Positions 14,259-22,351 of a DNA stretch of 23,376 nt are shown here, in pieces. The DNA is from a virus. The translations under genes and the position numbers were made by a program. The DNA lies in IMG/VR virus record IMGVR_UViG_3300043772_001133, positions 1 to 23,376 of that record, one strand, 5' to 3'. Position 1 is the first letter of the stretch. Every line of letters starts with the position of its first letter. The notes beneath the pieces were generated by a model that did no database searches, was not told the DNA's origin, and was given only the letters and a program-made list of their open reading frames with translations.

Positions 14259-16217
14259 ATGACTATGTCTATTCTCTGGATTGACTTCGAAACTCGGTCG
14301 AGGTGCGACCTCACCACTCGAGGAGTCTATAACTATGCGCAAGACGGAACCACCGATGTACTTTGCATGTCCTACGCGTTTGACGACGACGAGGTTGTTA
14401 CCTGGACTCCCGACATGCCATTTCCCGATGCTGTTCGCCAGCACACGGGGCAGATACGCGCTCACAATGCGGCGTTCGAGCGACTCATATTCTGGTACGT
14501 TTTACAGTGTGACTTTCAACTCGAGCAGTTCTACTGCACCGCTACTCAAGCGCGTGCTAACTGCCTACCGGGCAGCCTTGAAGATGTCGGACGCGCCATC
14601 AGCAGCAACATGCGCAAGGATCATCGAGGATCGCAACTTATTAGACTTCTATCAGTACCTCGTGCTGACGGCACCTTCAATAATGACCCGGCCTTGATGG
14701 CCGAGATGATCGCGTATTGCGAGCAGGACGTTCGCGCCATGCGTGCCATTTCCAAGGCCATGCGCGACCTGTCAGACGACGAGCTTGCCGACTACCATGT
14801 CAACGAGCGGATTAATGATAAAGGCGTGTTGCTTGACCTGCCGCTCTCGCAGGCCGCGATCAGCTACGCGTCGCAAGAGACGGACGACATCGAGCGGATC
14901 GTCGCCGAAGTGACCGAGGGTGCAATCGCCTCCGTGCGTAGCCCGCGTATGCGTGAGTGGGTGTTGGAGCGTGTGGGGCCGCAGGCGAAAGAGATGATGG
15001 TGGTCTACAAAGACGGCGAAAAGAAGTACAGTATCGATAAGGCTGTTCGCGCTAATTTGCTTAACTTTGCAGAGGAAAACCCCGATGAGATTCCGGCCAA
15101 TGTTGCGGACGTCATTCAATGTGCGGACGACCTCTGGGCGTCTTCGGTCGCAAAGTTCAGCCGCCTTGCAGCTCTCGCGGATGTTGAAGACCATCGCGTA
15201 CGGGGCGCATTCGTTTTCGCTGGTGGATCAGCCACTGGACGGGCATCAAGCTACGGCGCCCAGGTTCACAACTTCACTCGTAAGTGCGCCAAGGAACCTG
15301 ACGCAGTACGCCACGCTATGGTGCGAGGCCACAGCGTCATCCCAAGATTTGGAAAACGCATTACAGATGTTCTCCGGGGAATGCTCCGGCCCGCACTAAT
15401 CCCTGCGCCCGGACATTCCTTCGTCGTCGCCGACTGGTCAGCCATCGAGGCACGCGTCACGCCTTGGGCGTCCGCTGACCCGCAGGCCGAGTCGGTGTTG
15501 GACGTGTTCCGCCAAGGTCGTGACATCTATAAACGTGAGGCCGCAGGCATCTACCGGATGCCCGAGGAGGACATCGGCGACGAGTCCGAGGAGCGCCAGA
15601 TCGGCAAGGTCGCGATCCTGTCGCTCGGTTTCGGTGGCTCGGTCGGTGCGTTCTCGGCGATGGGCCGCAACTACGGCATCGTGCTGCCCGAGTCGGATTC
15701 CCGCCGGATCGTTGACGCATGGCGTCGCGCTAATCCGTGGGCGGTGCGCTACTGGGGCAAGCTCGAGGAGGCGTACACACGCGCGCTACGCAACCCGGGG
15801 CGCGAGTTCCCGGTCGGGCGCATCACCTACATGTACGACGGTCAGCACCTGTGGTACGCGCTGCCGTCAGGGCGCATCCTATGCTATCCATTTGCTAAGT
15901 TTGAGGGCGACGAGATCACCTACGTCAAGGCGGCATGGAAGCCTGCAGCGGATGCGAAGGAATGGCCGCGAGCGCGCTTGTGGCGGGGACTCGCCTGTGA
16001 GAATATAACGCAGGCAATCGCGCACGACTTGCTGCGGCATTCTTTACGCCAACTTCCCGAAACAGTCCTACACGTTCATGATGAGATCGTCCTCGAGGCC
16101 GCTGACCCTGAAGCATCTAAGCAGCGGCTAGTCGAGGTCATGTGTACGGCGCCTGCATGGGCGCAAGGGTTGCCGTTGAAGGCAGGCGTTAAAGTAATGG
16201 AGCGGTATGGGAAGTAG
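14259..16217 (+). CDS. Family A DNA polymerase with 3'-5' exonuclease
   Basis: The 652-residue protein has an exonuclease domain and a polymerase domain. Exo I is IDFET (Asp9, Glu11), exo II HNAAFE (Asn70, with Glu74 where E. coli Pol I has Asp424) and exo III YCEQD (Tyr153, Asp157). Polymerase motif A is VADWSAIEAR (Asp392, Glu397), motif B R446-QIG-K450-VAI-L454-SLG-F458-G, and motif C VHDE (His607, Asp608, Glu609). The residue aligned with Phe762 of Pol I is Leu454, which places it in the Leu762 type common in environmental phages. No 5'-3' exonuclease domain is present. It would copy the phage genome with the downstream primase-helicase. ATG 14265 is an alternative start two codons later. 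Confidence 0.93.
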   Translation: MTMSILWIDFETRSRCDLTTRGVYNYAQDGTTDVLCMSYAFDDDEVVTWTPDMPFPDAVRQHTGQIRAHNAAFERLIFWYVLQCDFQLEQFYCTATQARANCLPGSLEDVGRAISSNMRKDHRGSQLIRLLSVPRADGTFNNDPALMAEMIAYCEQDVRAMRAISKAMRDLSDDELADYHVNERINDKGVLLDLPLSQAAISYASQETDDIERIVAEVTEGAIASVRSPRMREWVLERVGPQAKEMMVVYKDGEKKYSIDKAVRANLLNFAEENPDEIPANVADVIQCADDLWASSVAKFSRLAALADVEDHRVRGAFVFAGGSATGRASSYGAQVHNFTRKCAKEPDAVRHAMVRGHSVIPRFGKRITDVLRGMLRPALIPAPGHSFVVADWSAIEARVTPWASADPQAESVLDVFRQGRDIYKREAAGIYRMPEEDIGDESEERQIGKVAILSLGFGGSVGAFSAMGRNYGIVLPESDSRRIVDAWRRANPWAVRYWGKLEEAYTRALRNPGREFPVGRITYMYDGQHLWYALPSGRILCYPFAKFEGDEITYVKAAWKPAADAKEWPRARLWRGLACENITQAIAHDLLRHSLRQLPETVLHVHDEIVLEAADPEASKQRLVEVMCTAPAWAQGLPLKAGVKVMERYGK

Positions 16218-16221
16218 TTGC

Positions 16222-16252
16222 CAAAATAAAAAAGCCGCCTGGCGGGGCGGCT
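16222..16252 (-). terminator. Leftward-facing intrinsic terminator before the primase gene
   Basis: AGCCGCC (16233-16239) and GGCGGCT (16246-16252) form a perfect 7-bp stem with a 6-base loop. On the minus strand the stem is followed by TTTTTTATTTT (from the A-rich stretch 16223-16233), the form of an intrinsic terminator for leftward transcripts. On the plus strand no T-run follows. It lies in the spacer between the polymerase stop and the primase start. Confidence 0.65.
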
Positions 16253-16272
16253 CAACCAAATGGAGGGGTCAC

Positions 16273-18591
16273 TTGGAATTTCTTGATTATTACACAAAAC
16301 TCGCGCCGGAAGGCGAGACGGCGCTCATTGTGCGCCAAAAGCCACAACTAAAAGACGGTGAGCTGCAGTTCCACGCCGATGGCGCGATCAAATGCACTTG
16401 GCCTGCTGCGCTGCCGGACGCGCGCAAGATCAAGCCTGATCAGGCATGGTACGGCAACACGGCGTCGTTTATCGTCGACCGCTTCACCGAGGGCAAACCG
16501 TCGGCCAGTGCCGCTAACTGCGAGTACGTCTTGGTCATGGTGCTGGACGACGTGGGCGACCCGATCAAGGCGCCGAAGACGCCGCAACTGCCGCCGACAT
16601 GGATCATCGAGACGTCCGCCGGATCGTTCCAGTGGGGCTACACGTTCAGCCTAGACGATCAGCCAACCAAGGCCGAGTACGCTGCAGCCATCAAAGCAAT
16701 CGCTGACGCGGGCTACACCGACCCAGGCGCTTGCAATGCCGTGCGCAACTTCCGCCTGCCGGGGTCGATCAATCTAAAGCCCGGACGCGACCGGTTTGCC
16801 GCGCAGCTAGTCGAGTTCCACCCCGACCGCGAGTACAGTCTGACCGAGATATGCGACGCGCTTGGCGTGACACCTGCGCCTGCCGAGTCGCTTGGTGTGC
16901 GCCCGATCCGTTTGTCGGATGATGGCGCTGACGACGTGATGGCGTGGCTCTCGGGTCAGGGGCTATTGCTGTCGCTACCGAATCCTGCAGGCTGGGCAGG
17001 CGTCATCTGCCCGAACAGTGCCGAGCATACCGATGGCAACCCGGAAGGGCGCTATAGCCCGGCTACGCGTTCCTACTGCTGCCTGCACAGCCACTGCATC
17101 GACTTAGACTCCAACGTGTTCTTGGATTGGGTTGCGGCCAACGGCGGCCCAAAGCACGCGCCTGGGCTGCGTGACGAGCTGCTCGCGCAGACGATGAGCC
17201 ACACGCTGTCGCAGCTGACGCCCACCGAAGCGTTCCCCGACGCTGCAGCGCAAGTAATCGCCGATGTTGAGAAGAAGCAGCGCGACCGTGTCGAAAAGGC
17301 CGACTGGTATACCCGCTATGCGTATATCGAGTCCGAGGATGCGTACTTCGACCTGCATGACCGCCGGGAAGTCGCGCGCAGTACGTTCAATGCGCTCTAC
17401 CGGCATGTGACCTGTTTCTCGATTCACCCGAGCCGCTACAAGCGCCGCATCGAGGCGTCCGTCTGTTTCGATGAAAACCGCCAGAAGCTAGGCGCGCTCA
17501 CGTTGGCGGGCATCACCTATGCCGCAGGCGAGAGCGTTCAGGTGGCGCGCGAGGGGCAAGTGTACGGTAACCGCTGGATTGATCACCGACCGGCGGCGGC
17601 TACTGGTAACCCGCGCGTCTGGCTCGAGCATGTCGAGCGGATGATTCCTGAGTCGTCCGAGCGCGAGCATGTGCTAAACGTGATGGCTTACAAGCTGCAG
17701 AATCCGAATAAAAAGATCAATCACGCAGTACTGCATATCGGTAACCCGGGCTCCGGCAAAGATACCCTATGGCAACCGCTGTTATGGGGCATCGGTGGCG
17801 AGTCGCTCGCGAACGTGTCAATTGTGCGTAACGAAGAGATCATGAGCCAGTGGGGCTACGCGCTCGAGTCTGAGGTAATGGTGTTCGAAGAGCTGCGACA
17901 GGCCGAGGCCAAGGATCGCCGGGCGCTCGAGAACCATCTAAAGCCGATCATCGCTGCGCCGCCCGAGTTCCTGCAGGTGAACCGCAAGGGCCTGCACCCG
18001 TACCAGGCGCTGAACCGCATTTTCGTGCTTGCTTTTTCGAATGAGCGCGTGCCGCTATCGTTGCCGTCGGACGATCGGCGCTGGTTCGTCACCTACTCAG
18101 ACGCGCCGAGAATGGCCGAGCGTGACGCGCAGGCGATATGGGATTGGTACGCCGCCGGTGGCGTGGCCACGGCCGCAGGATGGCTCTATCAGCGGGACGT
18201 GTCACGATTCAACCCAGGGGCCGCGCCACCGCTGACTGAGGCGAAAATGATCATGGTCGAACAAGGGCGCTCCACCGCTGAATCGTACCTTGTGGACATG
18301 ATGCGCGCGCGCTTGGGTGAGTTTTCGACAGGCGTTGTCGCGAGCCCGTTCTACGCGCTTTGCGAGCGTATTGTGCATGGCGCGCCGTCAGGGGTGAAGA
18401 TACCGCAGGCGGCGCTCTTGCACGCGCTCAAAGAGGCGGGATGGGTCGACATGGGGCGCTTAAAGTCGCGCGAGTATGACGCCAAAAAGCACATATTCTG
18501 CGCGCCTGAGATGGCCGATACACCGAAATCAGAACTCAGGCGCATGGTGGAGCAAGTACCGGTTCCGGCCGCCGTTCGCTTGGTCAAATAA
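16273..18591 (+). CDS. Primase-helicase: RepB-like primase N-terminus and DUF5906/D5-type helicase
   Basis: I start at TTG 16273 (M-EFLDYYTKLAPEGE, 772 aa), since GGAGG lies at 16262-16266 six bases upstream; the ATG at 16207 would translate through a terminator hairpin. The N-terminal part looks like an archaeo-eukaryotic-type primase (VMVLDDVGDP, WIIETSAGSFQWGY, RNFRLPGSINLKPG). Next comes a zinc-binding knot, CPNSAEH and CCLHSHC (from about residue 246 to 275). The C-terminal part is a superfamily 3-like ATPase: Walker A GNPGSGKDT (about 490-498), Walker B VMVFEE, and the sensor/arginine segment AFSNERVPLSLPSDDRRWF. It should open DNA and lay primers for the upstream polymerase. Confidence 0.9.
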   Translation: MEFLDYYTKLAPEGETALIVRQKPQLKDGELQFHADGAIKCTWPAALPDARKIKPDQAWYGNTASFIVDRFTEGKPSASAANCEYVLVMVLDDVGDPIKAPKTPQLPPTWIIETSAGSFQWGYTFSLDDQPTKAEYAAAIKAIADAGYTDPGACNAVRNFRLPGSINLKPGRDRFAAQLVEFHPDREYSLTEICDALGVTPAPAESLGVRPIRLSDDGADDVMAWLSGQGLLLSLPNPAGWAGVICPNSAEHTDGNPEGRYSPATRSYCCLHSHCIDLDSNVFLDWVAANGGPKHAPGLRDELLAQTMSHTLSQLTPTEAFPDAAAQVIADVEKKQRDRVEKADWYTRYAYIESEDAYFDLHDRREVARSTFNALYRHVTCFSIHPSRYKRRIEASVCFDENRQKLGALTLAGITYAAGESVQVAREGQVYGNRWIDHRPAAATGNPRVWLEHVERMIPESSEREHVLNVMAYKLQNPNKKINHAVLHIGNPGSGKDTLWQPLLWGIGGESLANVSIVRNEEIMSQWGYALESEVMVFEELRQAEAKDRRALENHLKPIIAAPPEFLQVNRKGLHPYQALNRIFVLAFSNERVPLSLPSDDRRWFVTYSDAPRMAERDAQAIWDWYAAGGVATAAGWLYQRDVSRFNPGAAPPLTEAKMIMVEQGRSTAESYLVDMMRARLGEFSTGVVASPFYALCERIVHGAPSGVKIPQAALLHALKEAGWVDMGRLKSREYDAKKHIFCAPEMADTPKSELRRMVEQVPVPAAVRLVK

Positions 18592-19686: not shown

Positions 19687-20370
19687 TTAGGCCGCCTTTT
19701 GCATGAAAAATACTTTTTCCGCTTTTTTGGCGCCGGATCCGTGGGCCAAAAATCCGATGATCGTCGGCCGATCCGAGCGCGCGCACAATTGACAATCCGC
19801 GCAGCTAATATCGTCGCGCAGCTGCGCGGGACACGTGACAACCAGGCGGCCGGCCGGCGTGCGGTTTTTAGCGCCGGCGTCGATCGGTAGAATTGTGACG
19901 ACGGGGCCGGCGCCGGTATCGGCGAGCGCGTCGGCGTGCGTCAAATCATTGGCCGATAAATTGATAGTAAAGCCGGCCGCATTGGCCGCTTTAATCTGCG
20001 CCAGGTTGTCGGCCGTCGCCGGCTTGTGAGTGTAAGTAAAGCCACGGCGGCCGGCGTTGGCGTTGACTAGCATTTCGAGCGCGGCCGGATTAATCGAATT
20101 GTCTAAGCCTGGTAAATCGCCGGCTTGATTGTGACGCCATAATTGGCCGACCGGTAGCGCGGCGATAACGTCGCAGAAACTTTGCCAATCCAGGCCGCGC
20201 TCGCCGGCCGTGACAGCGCGCCAATGCAGCGCAAGCGGGCCGCCGTCGGCGTAACAACCGCCGCTTTTAAGCGGGCACGCGCTCGGACACGATAGGGCCG
20301 ACGTCGTCGAAACAGGTATCGGGCCGGTTTTTACGTTAGCTGATTTCAGCGTTAAATGTACGGTTTTCAT
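19687..20370 (-). CDS. Cysteine-rich DUF7227-like phage protein (227 aa)
   Basis: This is the largest gene of the leftward operon. The N-terminal end MKTVHLTLKSANVKTGPIPV is followed by SCPSACPLKSGGCYAD (Cys28, Cys32, Cys39), and near the end TCPAQ and SCADCQLCARSDR (Cys180, Cys190, Cys193, Cys196), then IGFLAHGSGAKKAEK. Between them are QLWRHNQAGDLPG and alternating strand/helix patterns such as AGFTINLSAND and PVVTILPID, compatible with a TIM-barrel-like fold. The layout recalls the phage families (Gp88-like, DUF7227) in which cysteine clusters resemble metal or iron-sulfur sites. No enzyme activity is established to my knowledge. It overlaps the upstream gene by four bases (ATGA). Confidence 0.75.
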   Translation of the reverse strand: MKTVHLTLKSANVKTGPIPVSTTSALSCPSACPLKSGGCYADGGPLALHWRAVTAGERGLDWQSFCDVIAALPVGQLWRHNQAGDLPGLDNSINPAALEMLVNANAGRRGFTYTHKPATADNLAQIKAANAAGFTINLSANDLTHADALADTGAGPVVTILPIDAGAKNRTPAGRLVVTCPAQLRDDISCADCQLCARSDRPTIIGFLAHGSGAKKAEKVFFMQKAA

Positions 20371-20666
20371 TGCGCGGCCCCTTGTGCAATATTGGCCGCG
20401 ATCGCCGGCGTGTAGCAGAGATATTCGCGGACTTTTGACCGGCGCTCGCGCGCGACGCGGTTACGCAGTTTCGGATCCGCGCCGAATCGTGCGTTATATG
20501 CATTTATGAATCTGGCCGCGTCGCAGTCCTCCTCAAGATACACAAACCCGTCGCGGTAATATGAATAAGCGGAAATGTCGCCGGCGATATTCAATTCGAG
20601 CAATAGCGCAACGGGTACTTTGATCCAGCCGTGGCCTGGATCCTGAATGTAATCAAATGTTTTCAT
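20367..20666 (-). CDS. Conserved hypothetical phage protein (99 aa)
   Basis: The start is set at the ATG at 20666 (MKTFDYIQDPGHGWIKVPVALL); a longer frame of 118 codons would begin with a spurious hydrophobic run overlapping the small membrane-protein gene. The product has a compact alpha/beta pattern: GWIKVPVALLLELNIAGD, SAYSYYRDGFVYLEEDCDAARF, then a basic C-terminal segment (RNRVARERRSKVREYLCY). I recall similar small proteins (DPGHGWIKVP, VYLEEDCDA motifs) as unnamed genes in phages and plasmids of proteobacteria. The gene is coupled to the cysteine-rich protein downstream. Function is unknown. Confidence 0.7.
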   Translation of the reverse strand: MKTFDYIQDPGHGWIKVPVALLLELNIAGDISAYSYYRDGFVYLEEDCDAARFINAYNARFGADPKLRNRVARERRSKVREYLCYTPAIAANIAQGAAQ

Positions 20667-20689
20667 GGTCGGATCACTTTTGAGAAAAG

Positions 20690-20782
20690 TTAAAAAGAAA
20701 ACAAAACGTAGAAAAAGGCCCACATGATCAGCGCGCCGAGCGCGCCGCCGAGCATTTCGAGAATTGTTGGTTTATCGCTCAT
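20690..20782 (-). CDS. Small single-helix membrane protein (30 aa)
   Basis: This 30-codon gene sits in the gap between two annotated-size genes. Its ATG at 20782 has GGAG six bases upstream on the minus strand and follows the previous stop by one base. The product MSDKPTILEMLGGALGAL then IMWAFFYVLFSF has a short charged N-terminus and one hydrophobic helix (about residues 10-28). Start signal, spacing, and membrane pattern together make it a better candidate than most frames of this size. A role in the membrane, perhaps against host defence or for lysis timing, can only be guessed. Confidence 0.6.
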   Translation of the reverse strand: MSDKPTILEMLGGALGALIMWAFFYVLFSF

Positions 20783-20783
20783 A

Positions 20784-20972
20784 TCAAGCTCCATTCATAG
20801 ACAGTTGCGCCGCGATCTTTTTTGCATCTTTCAAGCGAGTACAGCTCCAATAAAATTTACCGTCATACATTACATGCCAACTATTGCTTAGCGTATTGCT
20901 ACGAAAACCGTAGCTTGAAATTTTGATAATAGCTACGCTACCGTTTTCGTAGACTGTTTTTTCGTCTTGCAT
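20784..20972 (-). CDS. Small hypothetical protein (62 aa)
   Basis: The ATG at 20972 is preceded by AGGAG about six bases upstream. The product begins MQDEKTVYENGSVAIIKISS and continues WHVMYDGKFYWSCTRLKDAKKIAAQLS: alternating polar/hydrophobic strands followed by one helix, a compact beta-beta-alpha layout. It is the second gene after the strong leftward promoter and lies 11 bases from the first. Its codons are more A/T-rich than those of the genes farther down the operon. No family is recognised. Confidence 0.65.
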   Translation of the reverse strand: MQDEKTVYENGSVAIIKISSYGFRSNTLSNSWHVMYDGKFYWSCTRLKDAKKIAAQLSMNGA

Positions 20973-20983
20973 AACTTCTCCTC

Positions 20984-21217
20984 TTAGCTAACTAACTTCA
21001 GTTGATTGACGCCGCCGCGAATGCCGATGAGCATTTGAATCATTACGTGCTTTTGAAACCATTGAATGGAGTCGACGTTACTCGCAAAGACATAAACCTT
21101 ATCGCCGAGTTCCTGAACCTTGAACTCGAGCTCGCCGTCAATACGGTGGCCAAGCTTCCATTCAATCCAGTTTTTAGTCGCTACCGTTTCGAGTGTTTTT
21201 GCTTGCTTGGTGTTCAT
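20984..21217 (-). CDS. First gene of the leftward operon, hypothetical (77 aa)
   Basis: The ATG at 21217 has AAGGG about seven bases upstream and follows a leader of roughly 58 bases after the predicted transcription start. The product begins MNTKQAKTLETVATKNWIEWKL and has beta-like segments (GELEFKVQELGDKVYVFASN) and a hydrophobic, Met/Ile-rich stretch (HVMIQMLIGIRGGVNQLKLVS). It lacks cysteines. As the first product of a perfect-consensus promoter it should be made early and abundantly, which would suit a host-takeover protein, but no family is recognised. Confidence 0.7.
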   Translation of the reverse strand: MNTKQAKTLETVATKNWIEWKLGHRIDGELEFKVQELGDKVYVFASNVDSIQWFQKHVMIQMLIGIRGGVNQLKLVS

Positions 21218-21309: not shown

Positions 21310-21426
21310 GGAATCTTTTACACTTTTTTTGGGTTTTTTGTGGACTGCGTGGACAAGAGTGTGGACAACGAAAACGGCCGCGATTGTCCACGTCACATTC
21401 AAGGGACGGTGCGGCTTTTGGCTATT

Positions 21427-21570
21427 TGTGGACAATGTGGACAATAAAATCTGTTGAACTATAGGAACTTAAAAATGTTATCTATATGGTAATAGATTGT
21501 CCGGCCACGTGTGCGCTCTCGCACGCGCCGCGATTTTTTTCCCCTCTGTAGATTGTCCACATTGTCCACA
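21427..21570. repeat. 19-bp inverted repeat made of two tandem iterons per arm
   Basis: The left arm 21427-21445 (two adjacent TGTGGACAA units plus one base) is the exact reverse complement of 21552-21570. The arms are separated by 106 bp that hold an AT-rich stretch with few other repeats. The symmetry suggests two protein-bound platforms facing each other across a segment that could be opened. Confidence 0.75.
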
Positions 21571-21795
21571 TAGCTTTTTGGCAACATTTTGTCCGGTCAA
21601 AAGTTATCCACAGATTCGGTTCTTTTTTGATAACACTTTTACGTCCGCGCGGCCGCCGGTTCGTGTGGACAATGTGCGTGACCCACACCCATAACCTTAC
21701 AAAAAATAAGTTTTTGTGGAACACTAGTCTGCTATGTTTCACGCCTGGCTAATAGCTTGACCCTATTTGACATAATCCGTTAGCTTTTTGGCAAC
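21571..21795 (+). repeat. 15-bp direct repeat pair
   Basis: TAGCTTTTTGGCAAC occurs at 21571-21585 and again at 21781-21795, identical over 15 bases and in the same orientation. The first copy directly follows the right tandem iteron pair. Its length makes chance unlikely in a region this small; a second protein-binding site type is possible. Confidence 0.6.
21604..21612 (+). promoter_or_regulatory. Exact E. coli-type DnaA box
   Basis: TTATCCACA matches the strongest E. coli DnaA-binding sequence at all nine positions and stands inside the repeat cluster. It differs from the local repeat by one base, so it may be the high-affinity member of the group. Confidence 0.65.
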
Positions 21796-21800
21796 CAGCT

Positions 21801-21881
21801 CGAGGCAGGGGGGTGGGGGTCCGCGGCCGGCCGGTCACGTCCACGGAGGTGTTGCACAAAATTTTTTATTTTTTTAAAAAA
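21801..21881. other. G-rich tract, GGCCGGCCGG block and AT-rich tract before the terminase gene
   Basis: A run of six and five G's (21808-21819) is followed by CGCGGCCGGCCGG, and 21857-21881 is almost pure A/T. With the preceding cluster this completes the 580-base non-coding stretch 21310-21898, in which no convincing gene is seen. The G-rich block next to the terminase small subunit is where a cos or pac packaging site is usually found, and the A/T tract could be an unwinding element; neither is proved. Confidence 0.35.
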
Positions 21882-21898
21882 CCCGCTACTATTCAGGC

Positions 21899-22351
21899 AT
21901 GGGTATACATTCGTTACCGCTGACGGTTCGCAAACTAGAGGCCACGGAGTCGCGCCTACAGTCCATCTACGACGCAGCTAAGCTCGGACTGAAGGGCGAC
22001 ACACTGGCGTTAGCTGCAGGCATGTTGCCGCAGGAGTACCGGCACCTCTGCGAGATGGATCCGGTAGCGACGATGGCTGAGCAGAAGGGGCGCGCTGACG
22101 GCGAGTTGGAGGCGTCTGCGCTGCTGCACGACGCCGCCCGTAATGGTGACGCCAAGGCGGCGTTAGCGATCCTGCAGCACGCCCACGGTTGGACGGCGCG
22201 TCAGGAGATCAGCGTCGACGTCACGAACAAGATCAGTATCACCCAGGCGCTGCAACAGGCGCAGTCCCGCGTCATCGACGGGCTGATCACGGAACAGAAG
22301 CCGGAGTATCTAGAACATGCCAAACAACAAACTCGCGTCCACGCCAGCTAA
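21899..22351 (+). CDS. Putative terminase small subunit (150 aa)
   Basis: The gene begins at an ATG with no strong ribosome site, right after an A/T-rich tract. The N-terminal half is helical and has a helix-turn-helix-like order: ESRLQSIYDAAKLGLKGDTLALAAGM, then LPQEYRHLCEMDPVATM, where the first helix pair could bind DNA. The middle (EASALLHDAARNGDAKAALAILQHAHGW) resembles the oligomerisation helices of phage TerS proteins, followed by QEISVDVTNKISITQALQQAQ. TerS recognises the packaging site and stimulates the large subunit. Position, two genes before TerL and beside a candidate packaging region, supports the call. It overlaps the next gene by 35 bases. Confidence 0.75.
   Translation: MGIHSLPLTVRKLEATESRLQSIYDAAKLGLKGDTLALAAGMLPQEYRHLCEMDPVATMAEQKGRADGELEASALLHDAARNGDAKAALAILQHAHGWTARQEISVDVTNKISITQALQQAQSRVIDGLITEQKPEYLEHAKQQTRVHAS

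Follow-up and report, generated by a model that had tools for sequence, protein, structure and literature searches.

A nine-copy repeat array in a phage genome probably serves as an iteron origin for the phage's own PrimPol-D5 primase-helicase

We analysed a viral record 23,376 bases long (the window, by which we mean this whole stretch of DNA). It is part of a phage, and the related records are about 37 kb long. The window encodes a PolA-type polymerase (14259-16217), a primase-helicase, a DUF2800 exonuclease, an SNF2-like helicase and TerL (22710). An array of repeated 9-mers lies between two small minus-strand ORFs on one side and, on the other, TerL and the ORF at 21899, a putative TerS labelled from its position alone and without a family match. 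The first-pass annotation had described a cluster of at least nine copies in both orientations within a phage intergenic region, and this description was borne out. We found six exact copies of TTGTCCACA, two one-mismatch copies (TTGTCCACG) and one TTATCCACA, all within 21348-21672. The array starts 2.7 kb from the end of the primase-helicase gene, and ORFs lie in between. The coordinates of the features are collected in Table 1.

Table 1. Features of the array and of its proposed initiator in the window.
Feature	Position	Strand	Basis
Primase-helicase (PrimPol / D5-type SF3 helicase), 794 aa, proposed initiator	16207..18591	+	Pfam DUF5906, PHROG DNA primase, fold matches
Codons of residues 752-760 (LKSREYDAK), proposed iteron-specificity loop	18460..18486	+	Co-variation, predicted structure
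Outer left repeat TTGTCCACG, 1 mismatch	21348..21356	-	Sequence match
Outer left candidate iteron TTGTCCACA	21360..21368	-	Sequence match
Outer left repeat TTGTCCACG, opposite strand	21384..21392	+	Sequence match
Left tandem, TTGTCCACA x2 head-to-tail	21427..21444	-	Relatives: place and inverted orientation kept, core varies
AT-rich valley, 26% GC, candidate unwinding element	21440..21489		Base composition
Right tandem, TTGTCCACA x2 head-to-tail	21553..21570	+	Relatives: place and inverted orientation kept, core varies
Conserved 17-mer AAAGTTATCCACAGATT with likely DnaA box TTATCCACA (21604-21612)	21601..21617	+	Kept across repeat types in the window's clade
Outer right candidate iteron TTGTCCACA	21664..21672	-	Sequence match

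The array is far denser than expected by chance. In a first-order Markov simulation approximately 0.14 exact copies of TTGTCCACA were expected per window, and two exact copies within 334 bp were found in 0 of 200 simulated windows. When up to one mismatch was allowed, 12 matches were observed in the whole window versus 4.36 expected (0 of 100 shuffles reached 12), and only three of them, all with one mismatch, lay outside the array (7679, 8193 and 18291). The pairs at 21427/21436 and 21553/21562 are perfect head-to-tail 9-bp tandems, inverted with respect to each other, and the AT-richest stretch lies between them. Short tandem direct repeats and an adjoining AT-rich stretch, both features of iteron origins, are thus present in the window.

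Two further elements were noted towards the TerS ORF. An inverted repeat, GTGGAACA...TGTTTCAC, is located at 21716-21742 and was detected in 5 of 97 typed loci (the window, L009, L013, L095 and L113); we take its half-sites to resemble ParB parS half-sites in reversed order. Directly before the TerS ORF, at 21806-21885, there are a G-rich tract, GGTCACGTCCACGGAGGTGT and a T-rich run, with similar sequences in distant relatives. This stretch is a candidate cos/pac site or promoter.

We collected relatives of the phage by scans with TerL and the primase, which gave approximately 250 loci, while a DNA search of a phage collection returned three distant records only. Relatives were found in environmental MAG bins, several of these with a betaproteobacterial label. 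Two of the records, G002 and G007 (those of loci L087 and L138), are approximately 37 kb long and carry terminal direct repeats of 114 and 123 bp, which suggests that they are complete genomes. In the open-access literature we found no report on the origin of this phage family.

Two inverted 9-bp tandems around an AT-rich valley recur in approximately 100 related phage contigs. The 9-mer itself depends on the lineage (TTGTCCACA, TTGCCTACA, TAGCCAACA, TGACTAACA, TTGCCCACA, TGACCCACA and others) and occupies the same place in many loci. The check proposed in the first-pass annotation, a search for the same array in related phages, therefore gave a divided answer: the scaffold is found at the same place, and the repeat differs. 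In the alignment of relatives the ..ACAT frame is constant and only the core of the repeat varies, on both sides simultaneously. Therefore, the repeat looks as if it were read by a co-evolving phage protein rather than being a host DnaA box.

Several loci departed from this pattern in their details. L027 has a hybrid array, with TAGCCAACA in the left tandem and TTGCCTACA in the right one. L007, L009 and L014, which share an INTREHAT loop in the primase-helicase, carry extra repeats of another type, GCACGTCA, upstream of the left tandem. Another family of repeats, consisting of palindromes similar to GTTAGTGAGTACTCACTAAC, was present in 44 of 97 typed loci (L007, L018, L023 and others) and absent from the window; these palindromes sit between the 17-mer with the DnaA box and the TerS ORF.

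The nine repeats had been annotated as DnaA boxes, which would make the array an origin at which host DnaA initiates replication of the phage. The R1-type DnaA box of E. coli is TTATCCACA (PMC5835720), one base apart from TTGTCCACA, and an exact, conserved TTATCCACA is indeed present. However, in relatives with primases 60-97% identical to that of the window, TTGTCCACA is replaced at the same positions by 9-mers other than DnaA boxes (in close relatives TAGCCAACA, TGACTAACA, TTGCCTACA and so on), while TTATCCACA stays. What is conserved in the array is the arrangement of perfect 9-bp head-to-tail tandems in inverted pairs, and the core of the repeat tracks a phage protein, as described below. 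Of the features of an oriC-type origin, a consensus DnaA box is present (TTATCCACA at 21604), and the repeated 9-mers are not conserved as DnaA boxes in the relatives. A GC-skew minimum, also proposed as a check, was not observed at the array in four relatives of approximately 37 kb, where the skew drifts with the coding strand, so that this is weak evidence. We consider an array of host DnaA boxes very unlikely and rejected it; the repeats of the nine-copy array are most likely not DnaA boxes. The origin-like architecture, in a phage with PolA and a primase-helicase, stands.

The same comparison bears on the suggestion that the site titrates DnaA (datA-like) or acts as a decoy which delays initiation in the host. 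Several near-DnaA boxes are packed in a short stretch, which speaks for it. Nevertheless, relatives keep the scaffold and lose the likeness to DnaA boxes, therefore titration is not the conserved function, and we regard it as extremely unlikely. The single TTATCCACA behaves differently from the repeats. The 17-mer that contains it was found with at most two mismatches in 39 of 43 typed loci whose primase is at least 72% identical to that of the window, across six core types; in more distant loci it was absent (at least four mismatches). Since TTATCCACA is kept whatever the repeat type in the window's clade, it is likely a true DnaA box.

The protein whose sequence follows the repeat core is the primase-helicase. 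It matched Pfam DUF5906 above the cut-off and a PHROG DNA primase, and DUF5906 together with the NrS-1 and PriRep1 fold matches given below indicates a D5/SF3 helicase core. Its N-terminal part matched the fold of the S-2L AEP domain (TM 0.65 by target), and Pfam RepB_primase was below the cut-off. The only meaningful match in a sequence search of the PDB was NrS-1 (E = 0.004). Fold matches of the whole protein included the C-terminal region of NrS-1 (E = 7e-14), PriRep1 with dsDNA (E = 3e-7) and D5/E5 helicases. The AlphaFold models had a pLDDT of 79 for the whole protein and 81 for the last 165 residues. Both models placed helices at 715-723 and 734-743, strands at 747-752 and 761-765 and a helix at 774-781. 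This predicted topology suggests a winged-helix-like C-terminal domain, in which residues 753-760 would form the loop between the two strands, after the first two helices. When the C-terminal domain alone was used, the fold search gave no significant match (best E = 0.1); the weak matches included several winged-helix proteins.

The association of this loop with the repeat was first noticed in six sequences and then tested on all columns. L007, L009 and L014, with primases approximately 96% identical to that of the window and other repeats, share L752I, K753N, S754T, Y757H, D758A and A759T. L011 and L013, which carry TTGTCCACA, keep the window's residues at 752-759, save for A759V in L013. Core types were assigned by a fixed rule from the tandem 9-mers, and reverse-strand readings were merged by hand (TGGG/ACCC, ATGG/GTCC, TTAG/ACTA). 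In the first typing, among the loci listed, the GTCC core was accompanied by K753 in 38 of 38 (segments shown) and the GCCA core by A753 in 13 of 13. When 1,563 columns from primase, PolA and TerS were compared over 97 loci, residue 753 came first and residue 758 second. By permutation z-scores 753, 758 and 760 were the top three in the primase, and no column of PolA, TerS or TerL equalled 753. Among primase pairs with an identity of at least 88%, a difference at residue 753 was seen in 62% of those with different repeats versus 2% of those with the same repeats.

We also took the phylogeny into account. The core changed 32 times on a tree from which the C-terminal domain had been left out. 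Phylogenetically independent pairs were concordant for GTCC with K753 (8.2 concordant vs 0 discordant, p = 0.008), GTCC with D/E758 (8.6 vs 0, p = 0.004) and GCCA with A753 (4 vs 0). Across clades (<85% identity), the accuracy with which residues 752-760 predicted the core was 0.635, versus 0.374 for the nearest neighbour by whole protein, and 0 of 718 control stretches of 9 residues matched this accuracy; at 75% identity they were only slightly ahead of the best control (0.442 vs 0.432). In the exonuclease, helicase and VRR nuclease, used as upstream controls, some columns scored as high as 753, in only 30-41 typed loci, therefore the test has no power in that subset. The correspondence is partial, as the same core can go with several loops and the same loop with more than one core. 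GCCC, for instance, occurs with the loops KSR..R, HSREWPT and GTREYQT. In some loci the arrays were mixed or untyped. An initiator of the same replicon with repeat-matched specificity, a further feature of iteron origins, is thus indicated by a statistical match. This supports the alternative offered in the first-pass annotation, a phage initiator that uses the site, as the core tracks residues 753 and 758.

Co-inheritance of loop and array by recombination, with no physical contact between them, could also produce such an association. The primase gene ends close to the array, and L007 and L013, sisters by the primase body, differ in both loop and array, so exchange of the cassette does happen. 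However, the signal stays within one loop, where a few residues carry it, instead of covering the entire 3' end of the gene. Moreover, identical residue-core pairs are found again in clades that share 62-70% identity, between which a recent exchange is unlikely. Linkage as the sole explanation is in our opinion highly unlikely. Alternatively, the array might serve a phage regulator as a set of operators and have nothing to do with replication. Where repeated sites lie near divergently oriented genes, they could act as operators, and repressor-operator pairs co-diverge too. Yet the co-varying protein is a primase-helicase and not a repressor, and the tandems surround an AT-rich valley, as in origins. 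The small ORFs adjoining the array (20367-21217) had no match in 80 TerL-selected relatives under the settings used, and they were rejected as repeat binders. An operator array is, in our judgement, quite unlikely.

Taken with the predicted domain, the array and its co-variation argue that the array is an iteron replication origin recognised by the phage's own PrimPol-D5 primase-helicase (probability of about 0.83). From the array and loop evidence, and from what is known of SaPI Reps, we infer how such an origin of a phage with a genome of approximately 37 kb would work. Its 9-bp direct repeats, in two inverted tandems that flank the AT-rich stretch and with extra copies outside, would be bound by the winged-helix-like C-terminal domain of the primase-helicase. 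The protein would load as hexamers on both tandems, melt the AT-rich stretch between them and prime, after which the phage PolA would take over. Each repeat would consist of the constant ..ACAT frame and a variable core read by loop 753-760. Core and loop may have changed together many times, giving different origin specificities among related phages. Host DnaA probably helps at the conserved TTATCCACA adjoining the right tandem.

The best structural match of the primase-helicase is the primase-polymerase of phage NrS-1. The alpha protein of phage P4 is a primase, helicase and origin-binding protein in one, whose C-terminal winged helix binds iterons; it was retrieved by none of our searches, and the resemblance of this protein and its ori to the system described here is a possible one. 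Rep/PriRep1 of the staphylococcal pathogenicity islands (SaPI) and Cch2 of SCCmec are self-loading initiators with an AEP primase and a D5-type helicase; the proposed initiator has the D5-type helicase and a candidate AEP primase and would load itself likewise, and PriRep1 with dsDNA matches the full model. SaPI Reps bind their iterons with the C-terminal domain (PMC7581432), and this recognition of short iterons resembles the loop reading proposed here. Unlike in SaPIs, the initiator is encoded in a phage with PolA and terminase genes, and the iterons are 9-mers in inverted tandems together with a conserved DnaA box. SaPI iterons lie directly downstream of rep, whereas the array lies 2.7 kb from the initiator gene with ORFs between, therefore we did not classify it as a SaPI-type locus.

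Co-variation of an initiator with its repeats has been described in other systems. In geminiviruses a base of the iteron and a residue in the iteron-related domain of Rep vary together from strain to strain and determine replication compatibility (PMC2974675); that co-variation is alike, but the protein is an unrelated rolling-circle Rep of plant ssDNA viruses. In the Vibrio PLE the DNA-binding domain of the RepA_N initiator varies together with the iterons and both are swapped, with a phage nuclease directed at the origin as the driving force (PMC8263062). There a whole domain is swapped, the iterons are semi-palindromes of approximately 30 bp and the element is a satellite, whereas the family described here is one of phages, with 9-bp repeats and a few residues in one loop.

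If the proposed reading is true, DnaA-box finders can take phage iterons for host boxes, replication compatibility of related phages would be predictable from approximately 8 residues, and natural matched and mismatched pairs would exist for studying how a winged-helix initiator changes its specificity. As a tentative suggestion, this may be a widespread freshwater-type phage family with a readable protein-DNA code, in which a few loop residues set the origin repeat and the pair has switched repeatedly, perhaps in escape from satellites, co-infecting relatives or origin-targeting defences.
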